This document shows positions 978 to 58,986 of a DNA stretch of 64,000 bases, one piece after another. A program made the position numbers and the translations under genes. Each line of letters begins with the position of its first letter. Position 1 is the first letter of the stretch. The DNA is from Anastrepha obliqua (taxonomy: Eukaryota; Arthropoda; Insecta; Diptera; Tephritidae): positions 82,963,784-83,027,783 of the forward strand of contig NC_072893.1 of NCBI RefSeq assembly GCF_027943255.1, read 5' to 3'. The notes under the pieces were generated by a model. The model made no database searches, was not told the DNA's origin, and was given only the letters and a program-made list of their open reading frames with translations.

Positions 978-2219
978 TTGGGAGGTTGAATTAGTTTTAA
1001 AGGTTTTTTCGAAGATTTGGGGCTTTATTGTGAAAAAACGGTACAAAGTATTTTATTCGAAGTATTGGCCATCGCTAGCTACAACTTTCGCCCATCTTTC
1101 GGGCAATTTCCGGATGCCGTTTCTCCAAAATTCTGGCCGCTGCTTGGCTATCCATGACTCAACCCATATTTTGGTAGCCTCGTACGAGGAGAACCGCTGG
1201 TCCGCCAAATCGAGACTCATATGCCGGAACAAATGATAATCGGAGGGAGCTATGTCTGGACTATACGGCGGGTGGGGTAACACTTCCCAGCCAAGCGTTC
1301 CAAGGTATTTTTTGACAGGTTGAGCAACATGCGGCCGAGCGTTGTCATGTTGCAAAATAACCTTGTCGTGCCTTTTTACCGTTTCCGGCCGTTTTTCTTT
1401 CAATGCCCGGCTTAAACGCATTAATTGCAGTCGGTAACGATCCCCCGTGATTGTTTCGCCCGGTTGGAGCAGCTCAAAATATACGACGCCGACCTGATCA
1501 CACCAAATGCAGAGCATGATTTTCTTGCCGTGAATATTCTGCTTGGCCGTCGACGTTGATGCGTGGCCGGGCAAACCCCATGATTTTTTGCGTTTTGGGT
1601 TATCGTAGTGGATCCATTTTTCGTCGCCAGTCACCACCCGATGCAAAAAACCCTTCCGATTTTGTCGCTCGATCAGCAATTCGCACGGGACCCAATGTCC
1701 TTGCTTTTGGATCATTCCCATCGCTTTTAGACGCTTGCAAACGGTTGATTTATCAACGCCCAATGATTCAGCAAGCTCTTCTTGGGTTTGGCACGAGTCC
1801 TCGTTTACCAATTCCCCCAATTCCGCGTCCTCGAACTTTTTGGGCTGGCCAAGACGCTCCTTGTCTTCGGTGTGAAAATCACCACTTTTGAATCGTCGAA
1901 ACCAGTACTCACATGTTGAAATCGACGGAGTATGGTCTGGGTAGGCCTCCTGCAGTAATTCACGGGCTTGGGCTGTATTTTTTTCAAATTGAAGCAGAAA
2001 AGCAAAGCTTCCCGCAAATTGCGTTTCGACGGCACGAAAGTTGACATACTCGGAGGACGAAAACACTGCGTTGTTTATACTTCAGCGAAATGACAGATAC
2101 TGATAAACAAAGCCTAGGGATGAGGCTTTGTCATGAATATATATTCAGTATTGCCAACGCGATAAAGTGATAAATAGCGCCATCTGTGTGTCACCTTTAA
2201 AACTAATTCAACCTCCTAA
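978..2219 (-). mobile_element. mariner element, full length with both TIRs (defective)
   Basis: A 1,242-bp Tc1/mariner element. The left end at 978 reads TTGGGAGGTTGAATTAG and the reverse complement of the right end reads TTAGGAGGTTGAATTAG; the match continues through TTTTAAAGGT. Each end is flanked by the TA dinucleotide (976-977 and 2220-2221), the duplicated mariner target. The transposase runs on the minus strand and fills most of the interior. The termini are nearly identical, so the insertion is not very old, yet the ORF carries a frameshift and a 42-bp deletion. The element could therefore move only with transposase supplied by another copy. Confidence 0.93.
1053..2047 (-). pseudogene. 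mariner transposase (DD34D), frameshifted
   Basis: The protein would cut and paste its own element at TA sites in the nucleus. Translation from the ATG at 2047 gives a typical mariner N-terminus (MSTFVPSKRN, then LREALLFCFNLKK). At a seven-T run (1978-1984) the family match jumps to the neighbouring frame and continues with ELLQEAYPDH to the stop at 1053. The helix-turn-helix region (TQEELAESLGVDKST), the first Asp in TGDEKW, the second in LQHDNARPH and the third in IAPSDYH are all present, with 34 residues between the last two. Relative to the intact mariner at 27.4 kb, 14 residues are missing just after WVP, in the conserved WVPHEL region that follows the DNA-binding domain. An uninterrupted frame also runs upstream to 2066, but from a GTG and without family similarity there. 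Two lesions make it a pseudogene. Confidence 0.9.
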
Positions 2220-27211: not shown

Positions 27212-28484
27212 ATAGGACTATGAATAAGTTCGTGCGGTTTTACAACAGATGGCGTAACTTGATTATTATTCCATCGATCCACATTTCCAAACATTCATTG
27301 GAGAGCTACTGTCGTAAGGCACAAACGTCAGTATAAGTTTTTTATTTGAAGCGTAAACAACAATATTTTTACCACACTTGAAAATGTCGAATTTCGTGCC
27401 AAATAATGTGTTTTGCGGGGAATTTTTTAATATGAAGAAAAAAGCAGCCGAAAGTCATCGTATCTTGGTGGAAGTTTATGGTGAGCATGCTCTAGCTGAG
27501 CGAACGTGTCAGAAGTGGTTTGCACGCTTTAAAAGTGGTGATTTTGGCTTGGAAGACGAAGAACGCGAGGGTGCGCCGCCAAAGTTCATGGATACCGAAT
27601 TGGAGGAATTGCTCGATCAAGATCCGGCTCAAACGCAAGAAGAGATTGCAAAAACTTTGGGAGTTGATCAATCAACCATTTCCAAACGTTTAAAAGCCAT
27701 GGGAATGATCCGAAAGGTAGGCCATTGGGTGCCGTATGAATTGAAGCCAAGAGACGTTGAACGCCGTTTTATGGCATGCGAACAACTGCTTCAACGGCAC
27801 AAAAGAAAGGGTTTTTTGCATCGAATTGTGACTGGCGATGAAAAGTGGGTCCATTACGACAATCCAAAACGTCGGGCAACGTATGGATACCCTGGCCATG
27901 CTTCAACATCGACGTCGGCGCAGAATATTCATGGCCTGAAGGTTATGCTGTGTATCTGGTGGGACCAGCTGGGTGTTGTGTATTATGAGCTACTGAAACC
28001 GAATGAAACGATTACGGGGGGTGTCTACCGACGACAATTGATGCGTTTGAGCCGAGCACTGCGAGAAAAACGGCCGCAATACGCCGATAGACACGACAAA
28101 GTTATTTTGCAACATGACAATGCTCGGCCACATGTTGCACAAGTGGTCAAAACATACTTAGAAACGCTCAAATGGGATGTCCTACCCCACCCGCCGTATA
28201 GTCCAGACCTTGCGCCATCCGATTACTATCTCTTCCGATCGATGCAACATGGCCTGGCTGACCAGCACTTCCGTAATTACGATGAAGTCAAAAAATGGAT
28301 CGATTCGTGGATTGCGGCAAAACCGACCGAATTTTTCACAAAGGGAATCCGTGAATTGCCAGAAAGATGGGAAAAAGTAGTAGTAAGCGATGGACAATAC
28401 TTTGAATATTAAATTTGTAACCATTTTACGTCAATAAAGTTTCAAATTTCAAAAAAAAACCGCACGAACTTATTCATAGTCCAT
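27212..28484 (+). mobile_element. mariner element, apparently intact
   Basis: A 1,273-bp element. The left end is ATAGGACTATGAATAAGTTC and the reverse complement of the right end is ATGGACTATGAATAAGTTC; the match runs on through GTGCGGTTTT. TA borders lie at 27210-27211 and 28485-28486. The flanks rejoin as CCAATAT-TA-ATATTATC, a plausible empty site. The inner 5' region is about 170 bp and the 3' region about 70 bp with an AATAAA at 28431. Unlike every other element here, its transposase frame is open from start to stop. Confidence 0.93.
27384..28412 (+). CDS. mariner transposase (DD34D), intact ORF
   Basis: A 342-residue transposase, the usual mariner length. The ATG at 27384 (MSNFVPNNVF) is chosen because it gives the standard N-terminus; the frame is open two codons further up, but from a TTG. 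The N-terminal DNA-binding half holds two helix-turn-helix regions (AAESHRILVEVYGEHALAE; QEEIAKTLGVDQSTISKRL). The linker has GHWVPYELKPRD, the WVPHEL-type motif. The catalytic Asp residues are D152 (VTGDEKWVHYDN), D245 (LQHDNARPH) and D280 (YSPDLAPSDYY); D245 and D280 have 34 residues between them. The C-terminus is VVSDGQYFEY. It would excise and insert the element at TA as a dimer. No lesion is visible, so this copy may be, or recently was, a source of transposase. Activity is inferred, not shown. Confidence 0.95.
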   Translation: MSNFVPNNVFCGEFFNMKKKAAESHRILVEVYGEHALAERTCQKWFARFKSGDFGLEDEEREGAPPKFMDTELEELLDQDPAQTQEEIAKTLGVDQSTISKRLKAMGMIRKVGHWVPYELKPRDVERRFMACEQLLQRHKRKGFLHRIVTGDEKWVHYDNPKRRATYGYPGHASTSTSAQNIHGLKVMLCIWWDQLGVVYYELLKPNETITGGVYRRQLMRLSRALREKRPQYADRHDKVILQHDNARPHVAQVVKTYLETLKWDVLPHPPYSPDLAPSDYYLFRSMQHGLADQHFRNYDEVKKWIDSWIAAKPTEFFTKGIRELPERWEKVVVSDGQYFEY

Positions 28485-32476: not shown

Positions 32477-34019
32477 ATGGATAACTGGGACACGCAAACA
32501 AGAATTTGGATAGTCCGCCGCTATCACGCACTGGACCGTAGTTTTGGTACAGAGAGAGTACAGGCGGATGTTTGGCGGCGATCCCCCGAGCAGATGGACC
32601 ATAATGAGACTGGTGAATAATTTTGCTGAGCAAGGAACAGTCGCAAGAAGGCCTTATCATCGAAACCCACCAGTTCGGACGGAGGAAACGATCGCTGCTG
32701 TAGCTGCAGCTATACAAAGCAATCCAAGGGTTTCAACAAGAAGCTTATCTGCTCAACTTGGTGTCAGCCGACAGTCTTTGCAAACAATGATGCACAAAGA
32801 TTTAGACTTATTTCCCTACAAAATTCAAATGGTTAACAAACTGAATGCAGCAGACTTTCCGATTCGCTTGGAATTTTGCCAGAAGATCCTGCGAATGGTG
32901 GAAGAAGACCAAAACATGTTAAACTGCCTTTTCATGCCTGATGAGGCCCATTTCGATTTAAACGGCAATGTGAACAAACAAAATTGTCGAATATGGAGTA
33001 CAGTAGGTTCTGTTTTTATGCGGTAGATACGTTCCGCAAGAAACAGCATAAAAAAAAAACAGCATAAAAAAAGCTACTAGTTCTATAGTAAAACTATAGA
33101 TACGTTTCAAACGCTAAAACCGCATAAATCTGAAATAATGTAATAAAATCGCATAAAAAAGGGCACTAGTCCCATATTATTACTATAGATACGTTCCATA
33201 GACCGCATGAATCTGAAATAATTAAATAAAATCGCATAAACAAAATATTGTATCTTTGAAAATTATATCTTTATATATCTTCCATACTTGTAGGGTTAGC
33301 TTTTCTGATGTAATCTGTGATGAGTTTTTGCTTAGCTGGTTTAGAATCTTGTTTATATGTACAATTCCCGATAGGTCAACATGCATTTTGTAATTAAAAA
33401 AAAAAACCGCACTATTTCAAAACCGCATAAAAAAAAGCCGCATAAAAACAGAACCTACTGTACTTCTAACCCACAGATACTCCACGAGACGGTATTGCAT
33501 CCTCTTCGCGTGACAGTGTGGTGTGCGGTTTCTTCACGCTGTATTGTCGGGCCTTATTTTTTTGAAGAAAATGGTCACACCGTTACGGTTACTGGAGACC
33601 GTTATTTGAAAATGCTGAAAGAATTTTTCTATCCAGAACTACGCCGAAAGAGAATTCCTTTCAACTCTGTGTGGTTTCAACAAGATGGGGCAACGTCTCA
33701 CATAGCCCAGACTGTTATGACATAGTTGCGACGAAAATTTCCCAATAAACTGATTTCAAGAAACTCCGAATTTCGTTGGCCCCCCAGGTCGCCTGACCTT
33801 ACTGCACCTGACTTTTTCTTGTGGGGTTTATGTAAACAAGAAGTTTATAAAACAAAGCCAACAAATTTGGATGAACTAAAACAATCCATTCGGGCAACAA
33901 TTGCGGCTATTCCTGTCGCAACTCTCAAAGCAGCAATGAACAACTTTTTACTAAGATACCGCACTTGTGTCAACGAGCAGGAGGGACATTTAAATTCAAT
34001 TATTTTTAAAACTAGTTAA
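32477..34019 (+). pseudogene. DD41D transposase, frameshifted and interrupted by a MITE
   Basis: It starts at ATG 32477 (MDNWDTQTRIWIVRRYHALD) and shifts frame near 32545, where the longer frame takes over with TVARRPYHRNPPVRTEETIA, a helix-turn-helix region, and RSLSAQLGVSRQSLQTMMHK. The first catalytic segment reads FMPDEAHFDLNG. The gene is cut after NKQNCRIWST by the MITE at 33001-33460 and resumes as NPQILHETVLHPLRVTVWC. The second Asp is in WFQQDGATSH. There is a TAG stop after AQTVMT. The third Asp is in LTAPDFFLW, 41 residues from the second. The end is GHLNSIIFKTS at 34019. All three Asp positions survive, but one shift, one stop and the insertion make it inactive. Confidence 0.92.
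33001..33460. mobile_element. pogo/Tigger-like MITE, 460 bp
   Basis: The ends are perfect inverted repeats, CAGTAGGTTCTGTTTTTATG on the left and its complement on the right, extending into GCGG. TA borders lie at 32999-33000 and 33461-33462. The CAGT start and TA target resemble pogo/Tigger ends. No coding capacity. Inside are two imperfect direct copies of a roughly 90-110 bp unit (CTATAGATACGTT ... CCGCATAAATCTGAAATAAT at about 33090-33160, and again at about 33182-33240), and the terminal motif CGCATAAAAA recurs many times. It sits inside a DD41D transposase gene, which reads through cleanly if the MITE and one TA are ignored. Confidence 0.88.
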
Positions 34020-34138
34020 GCTACATTTAATAAAATTTAATGACCTTCAACTTGAAAAAAAAAATAAATGAATTCCATACACTAAAAAAAAAGTTATTTG
34101 AGTTTCTTAATGTAGCAAAATTCATCAGCCACCCTGTA

Positions 34139-35203
34139 TGTCAGTTTTCTTGTCGCAGTCCACCATACTAAGGCCCCATACAGCAATATCGGTCTAACTA
34201 CTGCCGTGTAGCACCAATGCATCAGAGAGGGTGATAGACCCCAAGTAACGCCCAGCATTCTTTTACATACGTACAGCGCATTACTGACATTTTTTACCCT
34301 TTCCTCAACATTGTGCTTCCACAGCAATTTACTGTCCAGTATTACTTCGAGATACTTCGAATGATCTTTGAGAAGTAGTTCGTTGTTGCCTAGCTTCGGG
34401 GGGTTCCACGCCGGGATCTTGTTATTCCTGGTAAAAGTTATAATGCCCATTTTTTTCGCGTTTATCGCTAGCCCTGCGCGATATGTCCATTGGTGCACAG
34501 TGTGAAGTATGTTATTCATCACATTACTGATGGTGTCCAGGTACTTTCCCGTAACTACTATAGCTATGTCATCTGCATACGTCACTAGTTTTGATGCCCC
34601 TCGGTCAAATTTCTTGGGTAGTTCATTTGCTACAAGTAACCATAATAGCGGCGATAGTACCTTACCTTGCGGAGTACCTCTACATGCATACATCGTTGCT
34701 CACATCGTTCCATTCCGCTCTTATCTTCCTGCTGGCTAATAGCTGCTTTATCCATAGATAAACCGCGGGTTACACACTAAGTGACTCCATGCTATTTGAA
34801 ATAGCATCTTTTGTCACGTTGTTAAAGGCCCTTGATATATCTAGAAATACTCCTAGAGCATACTCCTTATATTCTAACGCCTTCTCTATGTGTAGTACAA
34901 GTGAGTGAAGTGCAGTTTCAGTAGATCTGCCTTTAGTGTAAGCGTCCAAGGTTCAGGACAATTCCTCCGAGGCAATTGTGTCTCTAATTTATGCGTCTAG
35001 AATCTTCTCTAATGTTTTCAGGAGAAAAAAGTCAGTCTAATGGGCCTGTATTCCTTAGAGTAATTAGGGGTGTTTTTTCCTGCTTTTAGAATAAACACAA
35101 CTCTCGCTTCTCTCCACAATACAGGAACATAGCTGAACCTCAAGCGCCCCATGAATATCGACCTTAACCATGGTACCACAAGATGGCTTACCTTTTGGAG
35201 CAT
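34139..35203 (-). pseudogene. LINE reverse transcriptase domain, frameshifted
   Basis: Reading from 35203: VPVLWREARVVFILKAGKN and YSKEYRPIRLTFF, the opening of the RT domain. A middle section follows in other frames (ETALHSLVLHIEKALEYKEY; ALGVFLDISRAFNNV, with the FxDI-AF motif). Then a 199-residue frame from 34693 holds RGTPQGKVLSPLLW, the catalytic box VTYADDIAIVV, HSKYLEVILDSKLLWK and LLYGALVWWTATRKL. It copies the element's RNA at the target site in the nucleus. Key RT motifs survive at the residue level, but the frames are separated by stops, so no full-length enzyme can be made. Confidence 0.88.
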
Positions 35204-39350: not shown

Positions 39351-39357
39351 TTAATAA

Positions 39358-39898
39358 CACTGGTTTACAGCCAAAATGCACCAGAGACGCCGTTATGAAA
39401 TTCCTATGTAAAATCACCGTCTGATTCCGAAAATCAAGGTTATTTTTTATTCTATGGTAACGTTTTTGAGATATTTACGAATTACCGTTATTTCAAAAAA
39501 ACAAAAAATTGGGCCCACTTAATCATATATATCTCGAAAACGAATTGAGCGATTCCAAAACCGTTTAAAGCTTTTAAAAGGTAATAAAATTTCCTATAAA
39601 CTGTGTGTAAAACACTTTTTGCTAGGCCCTGCAGATTCAAAGATAACGAACTATCATAACGGATTTTTTAAATTTTTTTAGTAAAAATATAAAAAAAATT
39701 GTACTTTGAGAGAAAGGATCTCGAAAACTTTTTACTTTTTCGTGTATTTTTTGTTTTCACTCTAAGCTCTGTTTTATTACAAAAAAAATAAACTTTGATT
39801 AAACAAAATCGATGAACTAATACAAAAGTTACAAGCATTCAAGTAAATATATCCATATAGTAAAACTTAAGTATCCTACAAATAATAGCATATGTACT
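39358..39898. repeat. left long TIR arm of the 2.87 kb element
   Basis: Begins CACTGGTTTACAG and ends GCATATGTAC. It pairs with 41678-42227. The stop codon of the internal gene lies 21 bp inside the arm's inner edge, so the arm may also carry the gene's 3' processing signals. It contains several A/T runs but no ORF. Confidence 0.9.
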
Positions 39899-39918
39899 GT
39901 ATGTATTCTGTCTTAACT

Positions 39919-41630
39919 CTATGATCTTATTTTATAATTGAAAAAGTTATGTGTCTTGTTTTGACGCTTATTTATATAAGGATCGGTTTCTCTTATGAGA
40001 AACCAACAGTAGTCACCCATCATAGCGACATCCCAGAATCCTTGATACCGACTTTCAATCATTTTCATTTGCTGGTGAAACGTTTCGCCATGCTCGTCAC
40101 TTTCGTCGCCAAGATTTTGCGGGAAAAAATTTAAATGGGAGTGCATAAAATGAATTTTTAAAGACATATTTACTCCTGAAAGAAAATTAAAAAAGGAATT
40201 AGATAAATACGTAAGTGACACATTAGCATATAATTTTCTTAGGCTGGGTTAATCTTCCAATTCAGAACAAATTTTGGTCGTTCTTGTTTGTTCGGAGCAG
40301 GGCATTAAATTTAGATTAAGAGCTATATATTCTCATGTAAATTTAAAAATTTGCTTTAACATTTTTTGTTTAGTTTTAAAGTTAACTGAGAAAACGGTCT
40401 TATATACATATATATATATATTGTATATATAACGGTCTTATATGTGTTTTTTATTTACCCATTTCCGCATTGTTTTTGATTAAATCGTTCTCTATCAGCT
40501 CGAAGGACTTTTGTGTTTGCCTAAAAAAGAAGTAACGACCTTTTCAAAAGAGTCCCACGCCGCTGCCTCCACTGGTGACAATAGTTCTTTGAAATGGGTA
40601 TTGACCATTATTTTCCTTATTTGCGGCCCCACAAAAATCCCTTCCTTTATTTTTGCTTCTGAAATCTGTGGAAAGATTGTTTTCAAATAATGAAAAGCTT
40701 CGCCTTCTTTGTCCAAAGCCTTGACAAAGTTTTTGATAAGGCCGATCTTGATGTGGAGCGGAGTATGAGTATTTTATGTTATCCACCCCAACTTGAAACG
40801 CGATTCGTTCTGGCCAATCCTTTATGATGTAGTGGTCTTGACGTGCTCGGCTATCTCATTTGCATAGAAAGCAACAGTATTTTGTGTATCCAGGTTGTAG
40901 ACCACATAGCTTTCCAACGACTTTTAGATCGGTACATATTTTTCAATCATGTTCTTCGTATTTAATTAATTCAAGCAATTTTTGCATTGTCTCATATGTT
41001 TCCTTCGCATTTACTGCATGCGCGATCGGGATAGATGGCTTTTGGTTGCCAATATGCAATAATACGGCCTTTAAACTTAATTTATTGGCGTCTATGAACA
41101 ATCGCCACTCTTTTGAATCATATGGTTCACCAAACTGTTTAAATAGACCAGCAATGTTTTTGCAATAACAAATACTGTCCTTCTTCGTATAGTACTGGGA
41201 GAATTGTTCGTGACGAGTCCTATAATATGTTACCTTAACATCGGATGAAACAAATTTAAATTGTTGCATACGAGAGGCGTGTAGTTTGGCCTTTTCTTTT
41301 GACAATTCCAAATCCCTTATCCAATCATTGAGTTGTGCTTGTGACAAAGGGTTTCTTTCGTTTTCCGTTTGCAATTCAGTACAACATGATGCCGCGTAAT
41401 CAGATACTGCTGTTGACAATGAAACTGGAGCCGAAACTAAAGTTAAATTTGATTCTGGCAATGTAGCTTCCGTTGAATTTAGTTCTGGTAATGACACTGT
41501 AGATACGCTCGCATAGGTTACTTTTCTTGACTTTCCAACCCCAAATACTTTTGTAGTACAAATATAGCAGTCCGTTGAATGGCAAGTTGGTTCCCTCCTC
41601 TTCATTGGTGTAATAAATTTCATATGTCGC
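39919..41630 (-). pseudogene. candidate DDE-type transposase of an uncharacterised protein family
   Basis: I recognise this as a widespread uncharacterised family of cnidarians and arthropods. The exon starts at 41630, after a splice-acceptor-like CTATCTATTTAG. HSTDCYICTTKVFG is a zinc-binding-like opening; LSQAQLNDWIRDLELSKEKA follows, then YRTRHEQFSQYYTKKDSICY. LFIDANKLSLKAVLLHIGN may hold the first acidic residue and CTDLKVVG the second. It continues YTKYCCFLCK, PLHIKIGLIKNFVKALDKEG, EGIFVGPQIRKIM, an intron (40176-40458) joining AEMG to VNMSLKIHFMHSHL, then DESDEHGETFHQQM (possible third) and MMGDYCWFLIRETDP, with a stop at 39919. Lesions: two TGA codons at conserved Trp positions (after YEEHD and before DSRA) and at least two frameshifts. 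The catalytic role is inferred from context and the D/D/E-like pattern. Confidence 0.8.
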
Positions 41631-41677
41631 CTAAATAGATAGTTTAAGAATCATATGTACATATGACAGAATCATAT

Positions 41678-42227
41678 GTACATATGCTACTATTTGTAGG
41701 GTACTTAAGTTTTACTATATGGATATATTTACTTGAATGCTTGTAACTTTTGTATTAGTTCATCGATTTTGTTTAATCAAAGTTTATTTTTTTTGTAATA
41801 AAACAGAGCTTAGAGTGAAAACAAAAAATACACGAAAAAGTAAAAAGTTTTCGAGATCCTTTCTCTCAAAGTACAATTTTTTTTATATTTTTACTAAAAA
41901 AATTTAAAAAATCCGTTATGATAGTTCGTTATCTTTGAATCTGCAGGGCCTAGCAAAAAGTGTTTTACACACAGTTTATAGGAAATTTTATTACCTTTTA
42001 AAAGCTTTAAACGGTTTTGGAATCGCTCAATTCGTTTTCGAGATATATATGATTAAGTGGGCCCAATTTTTTGTTTTTTTGAAATAACGGTAATTCGTAA
42101 ATATCTCAAAAACGTTACCATAGAATAAAAAATAACCTTGATTTTCGGAATCAGACGGTGATTTTACATAGGAATTTCATAACGGCGTCTCTGGTGCAGA
42201 AAAAAAGTTGAAATTTGTGATCCAGTG
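41678..42227. repeat. right long TIR arm of the 2.87 kb element
   Basis: Reverse complement of the left arm; its outer end reads TCCAGTG. Just inside the arm, ATCATATGTACATATG occurs twice (41650-41665 and 41672-41686 region). The arm lies only about 48 bp upstream of the first recognised exon, so a promoter and any 5' exon would have to lie within the arm, or they have been lost. Confidence 0.9.
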
Positions 42228-42298
42228 TAATTTTATAAATAATCATATCATGAAATCATGGTAACTATCAGCAGAGACTATCGACCTGACTAATATTT

Positions 42299-58046: not shown

Positions 58047-58986
58047 AGGCGTTTTTCAATAGGTGCGCTTCAATTTTTTTCCGATAGGGAGGGCGAACGA
58101 CGCAATATTTATTATTTTTCGCTTGTCATTTGTAAACTTCATTAGTATACATTTCATCATGGAACGCTACACACTTGAGCAACGGTTGCAAACCGTGCAA
58201 ATTTTTTATGAAAATAATCGTGCAAATTTTTTATGAAAATTTATAAATTTTCCAAAAAATCATCTTCAGTGATGAAGCTCACTTTTGGCTCAATGGCTTT
58301 GTCAACAAGCAAAATATGCATTACTGGGCAGAAAGCAATCCACACGTGATTCATGAGGCACCGTTGCATCCCGAAAAAATCACTGTTTGGTGCGGTTTAC
58401 ATGCCGGCGGCGTAATTGGCCCATATTTTTTCGTTGACGAGAACGATCGCCACGTTACTGTGAGTGGAAATCGATACCGCGACATGATAAACGATTATTT
58501 TTGGCCGCAATTGAATGGTATGGACTTAGACGACATGTGGTTTCAACAGGACGGGGCCACAAGCCACACAGCACACGCTACAATTGATTTGTTGAAGAGT
58601 AAGTTCGATGAGCGCATTATTTCCAGATATAGACCGGTCGAATGGCCGCCGCGCTCGTGTGATTTGACACCTCTAGACTATTTTCTTTGGGGTTATGTGA
58701 AGTCATTGGTCTACAGTAACAAGCCGGCGATGATTTGTGAGCTCAGAGCCAATATTGAACGCGAAATTGCTGGAATTTCGGCCGATTTATGCAAAAGAGT
58801 GGTCGAAAATTGGGTTCAACGATTGGACTTCGTAAAACGTGCACGCGGTGGTCATGCAAAAGAAATCGAATTTCATACTTAAATGTATATGTTCAAACGC
58901 GATAATAAAAAAAAATTAGTTAAAAAAGTCAAACCGGTTGTGTTTTATTAAAAAAAAAGTTGAAGCGCTCTTATTGAAAAACGCTT
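58047..58986 (+). mobile_element. DD41D (rosa-type) mariner, internally deleted
   Basis: A 940-bp element. The left end AGGCGTTTTTCAATAGGTGC and the reverse complement of the right end AAGCGTTTTTCAATAAGAGC share a long TIR that continues through GCTTCAA. TA borders lie at 58045-58046 and 58987-58988. About 360 bp of the 5' coding region is missing. It starts 17 bp after the Tc1-like element at 55874-58029. Confidence 0.92.
58159..58882 (+). pseudogene. DD41D transposase with N-terminal-half deletion
   Basis: ATG 58159 gives MERYTLEQRLQTVQIFYENN. The sequence then runs into a 22-bp direct repeat (CGTGCAAATTTTTTATGAAA at 58194 and again at 58219) and a stop. The code resumes with KIIFSDEAHFWLNGFVNKQN and stays open from 58316 to the stop at 58882. 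The catalytic half is complete: first Asp in FSDEAHF, second in WFQQDGATSH, third in LTPLDYFLW, with 41 residues between the last two; the C-terminus is GGHAKEIEFHT. The DNA-binding half between residues ~20 and ~145 is deleted, so the protein could not recognise its ends. Confidence 0.92.

Follow-up and report, generated by a model that had tools for sequence, protein, structure and literature searches.

A non-autonomous transposon of Anastrepha obliqua with Chapaev3 traits and unlike short and long ends

Chapaev3 DNA transposons were named in papers of 2007 and 2008 that are referenced in PMC4411706. The available text of that source places Chapaev3, Chapaev, Transib and the RAG-bearing TransibSU in one superfamily and describes a RAG1-like Chapa zinc domain in Chapaev3, and in the available part of PMC12730594 the clan is named CMCT, with Chapaev3 as a sublineage of Chapaev. 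The accessible text of PMC4079192 gives for Chapaev3 TWA target duplications that always lie between A and T and a transposase of 556 amino acids with C(2)C, LH and H(4)H motifs, and it gives CAC/GTG as the termini of Chapaev. Chapaev3 has been recorded in another fly, according to the accessible part of PMC3630058. Here we describe a transposon of 2,870 bp at positions 39358-42227 of a 64,000-nucleotide stretch of the Anastrepha obliqua genome (the window, C2:82963784-83027783 of the assembly). The element is very probably a non-autonomous Chapaev3 copy (CMC/Transib clan) that depends on a RAG1-like DDE transposase from intact relatives and carries a fixed pair of unlike ends.

The original prediction had presented this element as a candidate undescribed transposon and had not recognised it as any named superfamily. 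The traits that we tested match Chapaev3 instead: CAC...GTG termini, a 3-bp TWA duplication with A before and T after it, and a transposase of about 556 amino acids. As far as the accessible text of PMC4079192 describes Merrow, Garfield and Conan, these Chapaev3 elements resemble the window family also in the three transposase motifs, in their animal hosts, in having deletion derivatives and, in some families, in a split gene. The 521-bp perfect inner arms of the window family, and its short and long ends with a 10-bp offset, are unlike the Chapaev3 described there.

Boundaries, copies and target sites

The termini of the element read CACTGG...CCAGTG and are flanked by TAA on both sides, which confirms at the base level the long inverted arms with these ends that had been predicted. 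The arms had been called identical over about 500 bp. This holds for the inner 521 nucleotides of each, which are 100% complementary, but the outermost 19 bp on the left and 29 bp on the right are non-identical, so that identity is confined to the inner arms. Self-comparison of the window returned only the element, its arms and two stretches of 30-35 nucleotides inside it, and thus no second copy is present in the window.

Scans of viral and genome contig collections confirmed no relatives of the element, and therefore all DNA comparison was made within the fly's own 836-Mb assembly. The check proposed with the original prediction, namely to collect and align copies and to define exact ends and empty sites, was run on this genome; it fixed the boundaries in 38/38 copies and yielded seven empty sites. 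A search with the left arm gave at least 40 places at a printed identity of 100% (40 of 578 first-look candidates were scored). Of the 39 places other than the window, one is interrupted, and the remaining 38 show both ends inside 6 kb. In all 38 copies with both ends the two boundaries coincide and are marked by a perfect 3-bp duplication, TWA in 34 of them and TAC, CTA, ATA or CAT in the rest. The base before the duplication is A in 39/39 and the base after it is T in 37/38, while the CAC...GTG termini are shared by the window and 38/38 copies. The 200-bp left flanks of the 39 copies are all distinct. With up to two mismatches allowed, the genome contains 263 left-type ends (27-bp pattern) and 272 right-type ends (37-bp pattern), and reversed control versions of either pattern had zero matches in it.

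The joined flanks of 39 insertions (the 38 copies and the window) were compared with the available DNA of the fly, and an element-free stretch spanning the site, a paralogous empty site, was found for seven. Each of the seven holds a single 3-bp unit, with letters identical to the duplication for L025, L042, L043 and L045 and one letter off for L021, L039 and L046. For L043 and L045 the empty sites were identified at 74-77% identity, and the alignments for L046 are A/T-rich, one of four being shifted. Measured against their majority sequence, the 39 copies carry 225 substitutions (~2,870 bp each), a mean divergence of about 0.2%, which makes the burst recent. Judged by these sequences, the element is a real and recently active transposon.

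It is noted that the interrupted copy, L016, carries about 2.0 kb of other DNA near element position 1,205, where the element pieces overlap by 6 bp; perhaps this is a nested transposon. A copy of the window family (L021) and one of family B, described below (L058/L059), have inserted at an identical position within one genomic repeat, ...CCGAA-TAA-TCAGCC, and an empty version of this repeat is present in L046 and L019.

The transposase gene and family assignment

The arms enclose the pieces of one protein, as predicted, and all of the quoted protein motifs are present, but the gene is not intact. It lies on the minus strand in frame-shifted pieces (Table 1), its main frame is broken by two TGA codons and its start is deleted. 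The second D (TDLKV) and the C(2)C motif are in the same frame as the FID piece, beyond a TGA. Compared with a coding relative, about 0.89 kb including the gene start is replaced by 54 bp in the window copy; outside the deletion the two are 96-98% identical. The coding relative at C1:56787708-56791399 is a 3,692-bp element with a short and a long end (the latter with one base changed) and TTA on both sides, and it has a 508-amino-acid frame and a separate C-terminal frame. Its main block was matched at no fewer than 42 places, 35 of them with the 508-amino-acid frame and 30 of these stop-free, counts that are lower bounds from 78 of 3,888 candidates scored. Coding relatives in the genome include L048 (579 amino acids) and L056, with a 508-amino-acid frame and a separate C-terminal frame. 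By sequence, the window copy and its near-identical siblings form a deletion subfamily, for which the deletion was checked directly in the window copy and the siblings were judged by length and 99% identity. Since the gene start is deleted and the gene is broken, these copies would have to move in trans.

Homologue searches found relatives in Bactrocera (70% over 97%), other insects, a horseshoe crab and a spider. With the longer relative P0002 as the query, 2,624 proteins were obtained at E <= 0.001; among the 120 relatives listed, nearly all are unnamed and many are 550-570 amino acids long. The motif strings of the family had no match in the literature text searched. One 238-amino-acid relative (P0114) comes from a 716-bp contig recorded as Klebsiella pneumoniae and most likely represents contamination by animal DNA.

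The proposal that the enclosed family is a transposase is borne out by the structural model of a relative, in which a RAG1-like core is predicted; the structure comparison suggested with that proposal has RAG1/Transib at the top and points to the RAG1/Transib catalytic core fold. In the numbering of the modelled relative, D261 is conserved in 72/73 rows and D315 in 73/73, and among rows with letters E510 is found in 59/62 and E513 in 60/62. The residues put forward as catalytic, D (FID), D (TDLKV) and E (SDEHGE), all fall on conserved positions, although E510 and E513 are indistinguishable, and the putative triad would be D261, D315 and either E510 or E513. The three motifs are also conserved: C334 and C337 of C(2)C each in 70/73 rows and, among rows with letters, L382 and H383 of LH in 68/68, H491 of H(4)H in 61/62 and H496 in 61/61.

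The N-terminal region, where a Chapa-type zinc domain would lie, is mostly absent from the window copy. In the relatives, PF12560 (RAG1_imp_bd) was matched in 7/73 members with a best E of 0.0064 and zf-AD in 16/73 with a best E of 0.00035, both below the cut-off. The RAG1 N-terminal chain 21wb_A scored E 0.75, and the next rows, at 0.99-1.5, are unrelated. For L056 the only N-terminal domain match was zf-AD at 0.11, and L048 had none. Residues 139-166 of the model have a predicted local distance difference test score (pLDDT) under 50 and form a linker of low confidence.

Because the tested traits agree with published Chapaev3, we assign the element, from its sequence traits, to a new Chapaev3 family, young and abundant, and not to a new superfamily. 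A superfamily with the same architecture and no relation to any named group would fit the 2,624 relatives, nearly all unnamed among the 120 listed, and the lack of any Pfam or NCBIfam model at cut-off. It is nevertheless very improbable, as the ends, the TWA duplication with its A and T neighbours, the protein length and the three motifs are those of published Chapaev3, and the predicted fold is that of RAG1/Transib, where the literature places Chapaev3. We likewise give very little credence to a placement elsewhere in the CMC/Transib clan, as an EnSpm/CACTA or a Transib-type element, even though the available text of PMC12730594 describes CAC..GTG ends and 3-bp duplications for EnSpm too, and the model is roughly as near to the best Transib row as to RAG1. 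Transib and RAG-like elements make 5-bp duplications, whereas the duplication here is 3 bp in 38/38 copies, and a TWA target between A and T is a published Chapaev3 trait that speaks against both EnSpm and Transib. HzTransib lacks the RAG1-like N-terminal region, while the window family has an N-terminal cysteine/histidine region. PF02992, which we take to be the CACTA transposase model (Transposase_21-type), is not among the 25 of 39 matching families listed (73 members, E <= 10). PIF/Harbinger was considered for its TWA duplication, and no such family is among the same 25 listed; RAG1/Transib lead the fold comparison, in which a missing row excludes nothing. Both absences, of CACTA and of Harbinger, are statements about the listing.

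Several points weigh against the Chapaev3 assignment and the dependence on intact relatives. Membership follows from traits and not from direct alignment to a named Chapaev3 transposase; the family reaches the cut-off of no Pfam or NCBIfam model; three of four HzTransib entries score no better than the P element, within a 1-unit tie; and spread in trans, after loss of part of the gene, is deduced from shared ends and a broken gene.

Short and long ends

The two ends are not equivalent, a difference that the original prediction had missed. In the window family both begin with CAC-N6-ACA and then diverge; 19 bp precede the identical arm at the short end, on the gene 3' side, and 29 bp precede it at the long end. 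Counted in the manner of recombination signals, with a heptamer followed by a spacer, they correspond to 12 and 22, near the 12 and 23 of RAG signals. In 38/38 copies the short end is exact and the long end free of gaps.

Other families were located in the genome with P0135 as the query. In families A and B, with a transposase 41% identical, the short end is CACAGGTCGACACTGAAAA, the long end is CACTGGTCGACAAAAAATGATTATTTTTC, and the inner block TGATTCAAG follows both. Family C has a shared AAAATATCTTG at 18 and 28, family F (four copies) a shared TCTGATGA at 18 and 28, and copy G2 of family G has TGCGGCA at 20 and 30. With J and H counted as one group and A and B as one, the 10-bp offset is present in five of the six family groups with both ends located (window, A/B, C, F and G), and two of these asymmetric groups have transposases only 41% identical. 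In our own approximate dinucleotide shuffle, shuffled ends reached the run length together with offset 10 in 1 (C), 5 (F) and 7 (G2) per 1000. The ends also differ in kind: A-rich sequence follows ACA in 5/5 long ends, and a T tract lies at the end in 3/5.

Some copies are less regular. The offset is present, with CTA on either side, in copy F2 (C5:107484123), which ranked second to a chance candidate. In another copy of family G the offset is 8 and spans an A-run (GCGGCA run), while the longest run of that copy has offset 22. Family E retains one end of the long type (28 bp); in its decayed partner, which lacks both CAC and a duplication, the block lies closer by 10 bp, and the family was excluded from the offset count as too decayed. 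The ends of families D and M were not found. In family A, the C9 copy has no recognisable short end and the C4 copy none in the stretch examined. In the C1 copy of this family (L055), about 23 bp of the long end is in tandem, with the outermost CAC 23 bp further out; its CTA duplication fits the outer repeat only, so the outer CAC is probably the one used.

The orientation of the gene is not fixed relative to the ends. The long end lies on the gene 5' side in the C2 copy of family A and on the 3' side in its C9, C4 and C1 copies and in family B, so that family A carries the gene in both orientations with the unlike pair retained. The interior may have flipped through recombination between the long arms, with the outer unlike ends left in place. 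The coding copies matched to listed short ends have the gene orientation of the window in 14/14 cases. The list of exact ends covers C1, C2 and the initial 43 Mb of C3, and pairs were taken within 15 kb. The 100 short and 76 long ends form 71 convergent short-long pairs and 0 like pairs, leaving 29 short and five long ends unpaired. Coding copies account for 14 of the 29, the long end having a changed base in the one coding copy checked; the other 15 include L029, for which a right end is present.

We considered and rejected this pair count as proof of a pairing rule, as copies of one founder inherit unlike ends anyway. That the 19/29 difference is a functionless indel accident, kept through descent from few founders, is a serious possibility, to which we give somewhat less than even weight. 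In its favour, common descent alone would give the 71 unlike and 0 like pairs, and group J/H (L068-L071, L084) has symmetric CAC-N6-ACA ends with good duplications. The arms of J/H are tandem repeats of a unit bearing GAATCCGAATCCG, and the two families are a second Chapaev3 lineage in the fly. The G copy with offset 8 and the partly tandem long end of L055 also favour an accident. Against it, the offset recurs at the same positions in five groups with unrelated-looking inner blocks, the shuffles rarely reproduce it, short and long ends differ in kind, and family A keeps the unlike pair with its gene in either orientation. That the offset stays constant while the inner blocks differ between families argues for function, in which case the transposase would need one end of each kind.

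Table 1. Parts of the element in the window
Feature	Position	Strand	Remark
Target site duplication TAA, left copy	39355..39357	.	3-bp duplication at same position in 38/38 other copies
Short end, 19 bp, CAC-N6-ACA core, gene 3' side	39358..39376	+	End comparison across copies
Left inner arm, 521 bp, 100% inverted repeat of right arm	39377..39897	+	
Gene piece: C-terminal motifs (H(4)H region, SDEHGE with likely catalytic E)	39919..40248	-	
Gene piece: all-helical insertion, LH motif (PLHIK)	40495..40773	-	Gene partly continues in other frame, 40544-40855
Largest open gene piece, 235 amino acids, putative first catalytic D (FID)	40943..41650	-	
Right inner arm, 521 bp	41678..42198	-	
Long end, 29 bp, CAC-N6-ACA core, gene 5' side	42199..42227	-	End comparison across copies
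Target site duplication TAA, right copy	42228..42230	.	

Other mobile elements are presumably present in the window. Long open frames at 27357-28412 (+) and 1053-2081 (-) appear mariner-transposase-like, 32514-33026 (+) and 58247-58882 (+) are taken to be pieces of another transposase-like gene, and 34094-34699 (-) is presumably a fragment resembling the reverse transcriptase of a long interspersed nuclear element.

Proposed mechanism and comparison with 12/23 pairing

The available text of PMC8355894 records 12/23 asymmetry outside V(D)J only for some Transibs, together with a 27/31 asymmetry in amphioxus ProtoRAG and an oyster RAG-like element with asymmetric ends; in that of PMC7204232, invertebrate RAG-like systems are proposed to be rather insensitive to 12/23 asymmetry, and the RAG1 nonamer-binding domain acts on a hinge. 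A word search of the main text of PMC4079192, to which the comparison was confined, gave no match for asymmetry, TIR or subterminal parts. A 10-bp end offset is unreported for Chapaev3 in the literature searched; Repbase Reports, supplements and most subscription papers lay outside that search, so it may be in print. Compared with the 12/23 recombination signal sequences of RAG, the offset of the window family is 10 bp and not 11 bp, and its duplication is 3 bp, whereas RAG and RAG-like transposons make 5 bp. Unlike RAG, the window-type families have no common nonamer, the inner block varying by family, and the N-terminal likeness to RAG1 is too weak to count.

The ends and their numbers, the duplications, the empty sites, the coding relatives, the predicted fold and the offset are direct observations, on which we propose the following course of events. 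A RAG1-like DDE transposase from intact relatives in the same genome would bind both ends and cut at CAC, and insertion at A-TWA-T with a 3-bp staggered cut would yield the TWA duplications. The ends would act as a fixed unlike pair, the short one with its inner block from +20 and the long one from +30. A candidate reader of the inner block is the N-terminal region, carried on the low-confidence linker much as the nonamer-binding domain of RAG1 acts on its hinge. Tentatively, these Chapaev3 elements may have an end-pairing rule of their own, in which a RAG1-related transposase synapses heptamer plus 12 with heptamer plus 22 and its N-terminal region, tethered by a flexible linker, reads the distal block; we hold this possible though rather doubtful.

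The end offset equals one turn of the DNA helix and recalls the paired signals of the immune system. If such a rule is true, the 12/23 principle would be ancient within the RAG1/Transib/Chapaev clan, would have recurred there and would not require RAG2. The 10-bp offset, kept across unlike inner sequences, offers a single-protein system for direct tests of the origin of 12/23-like pairing.
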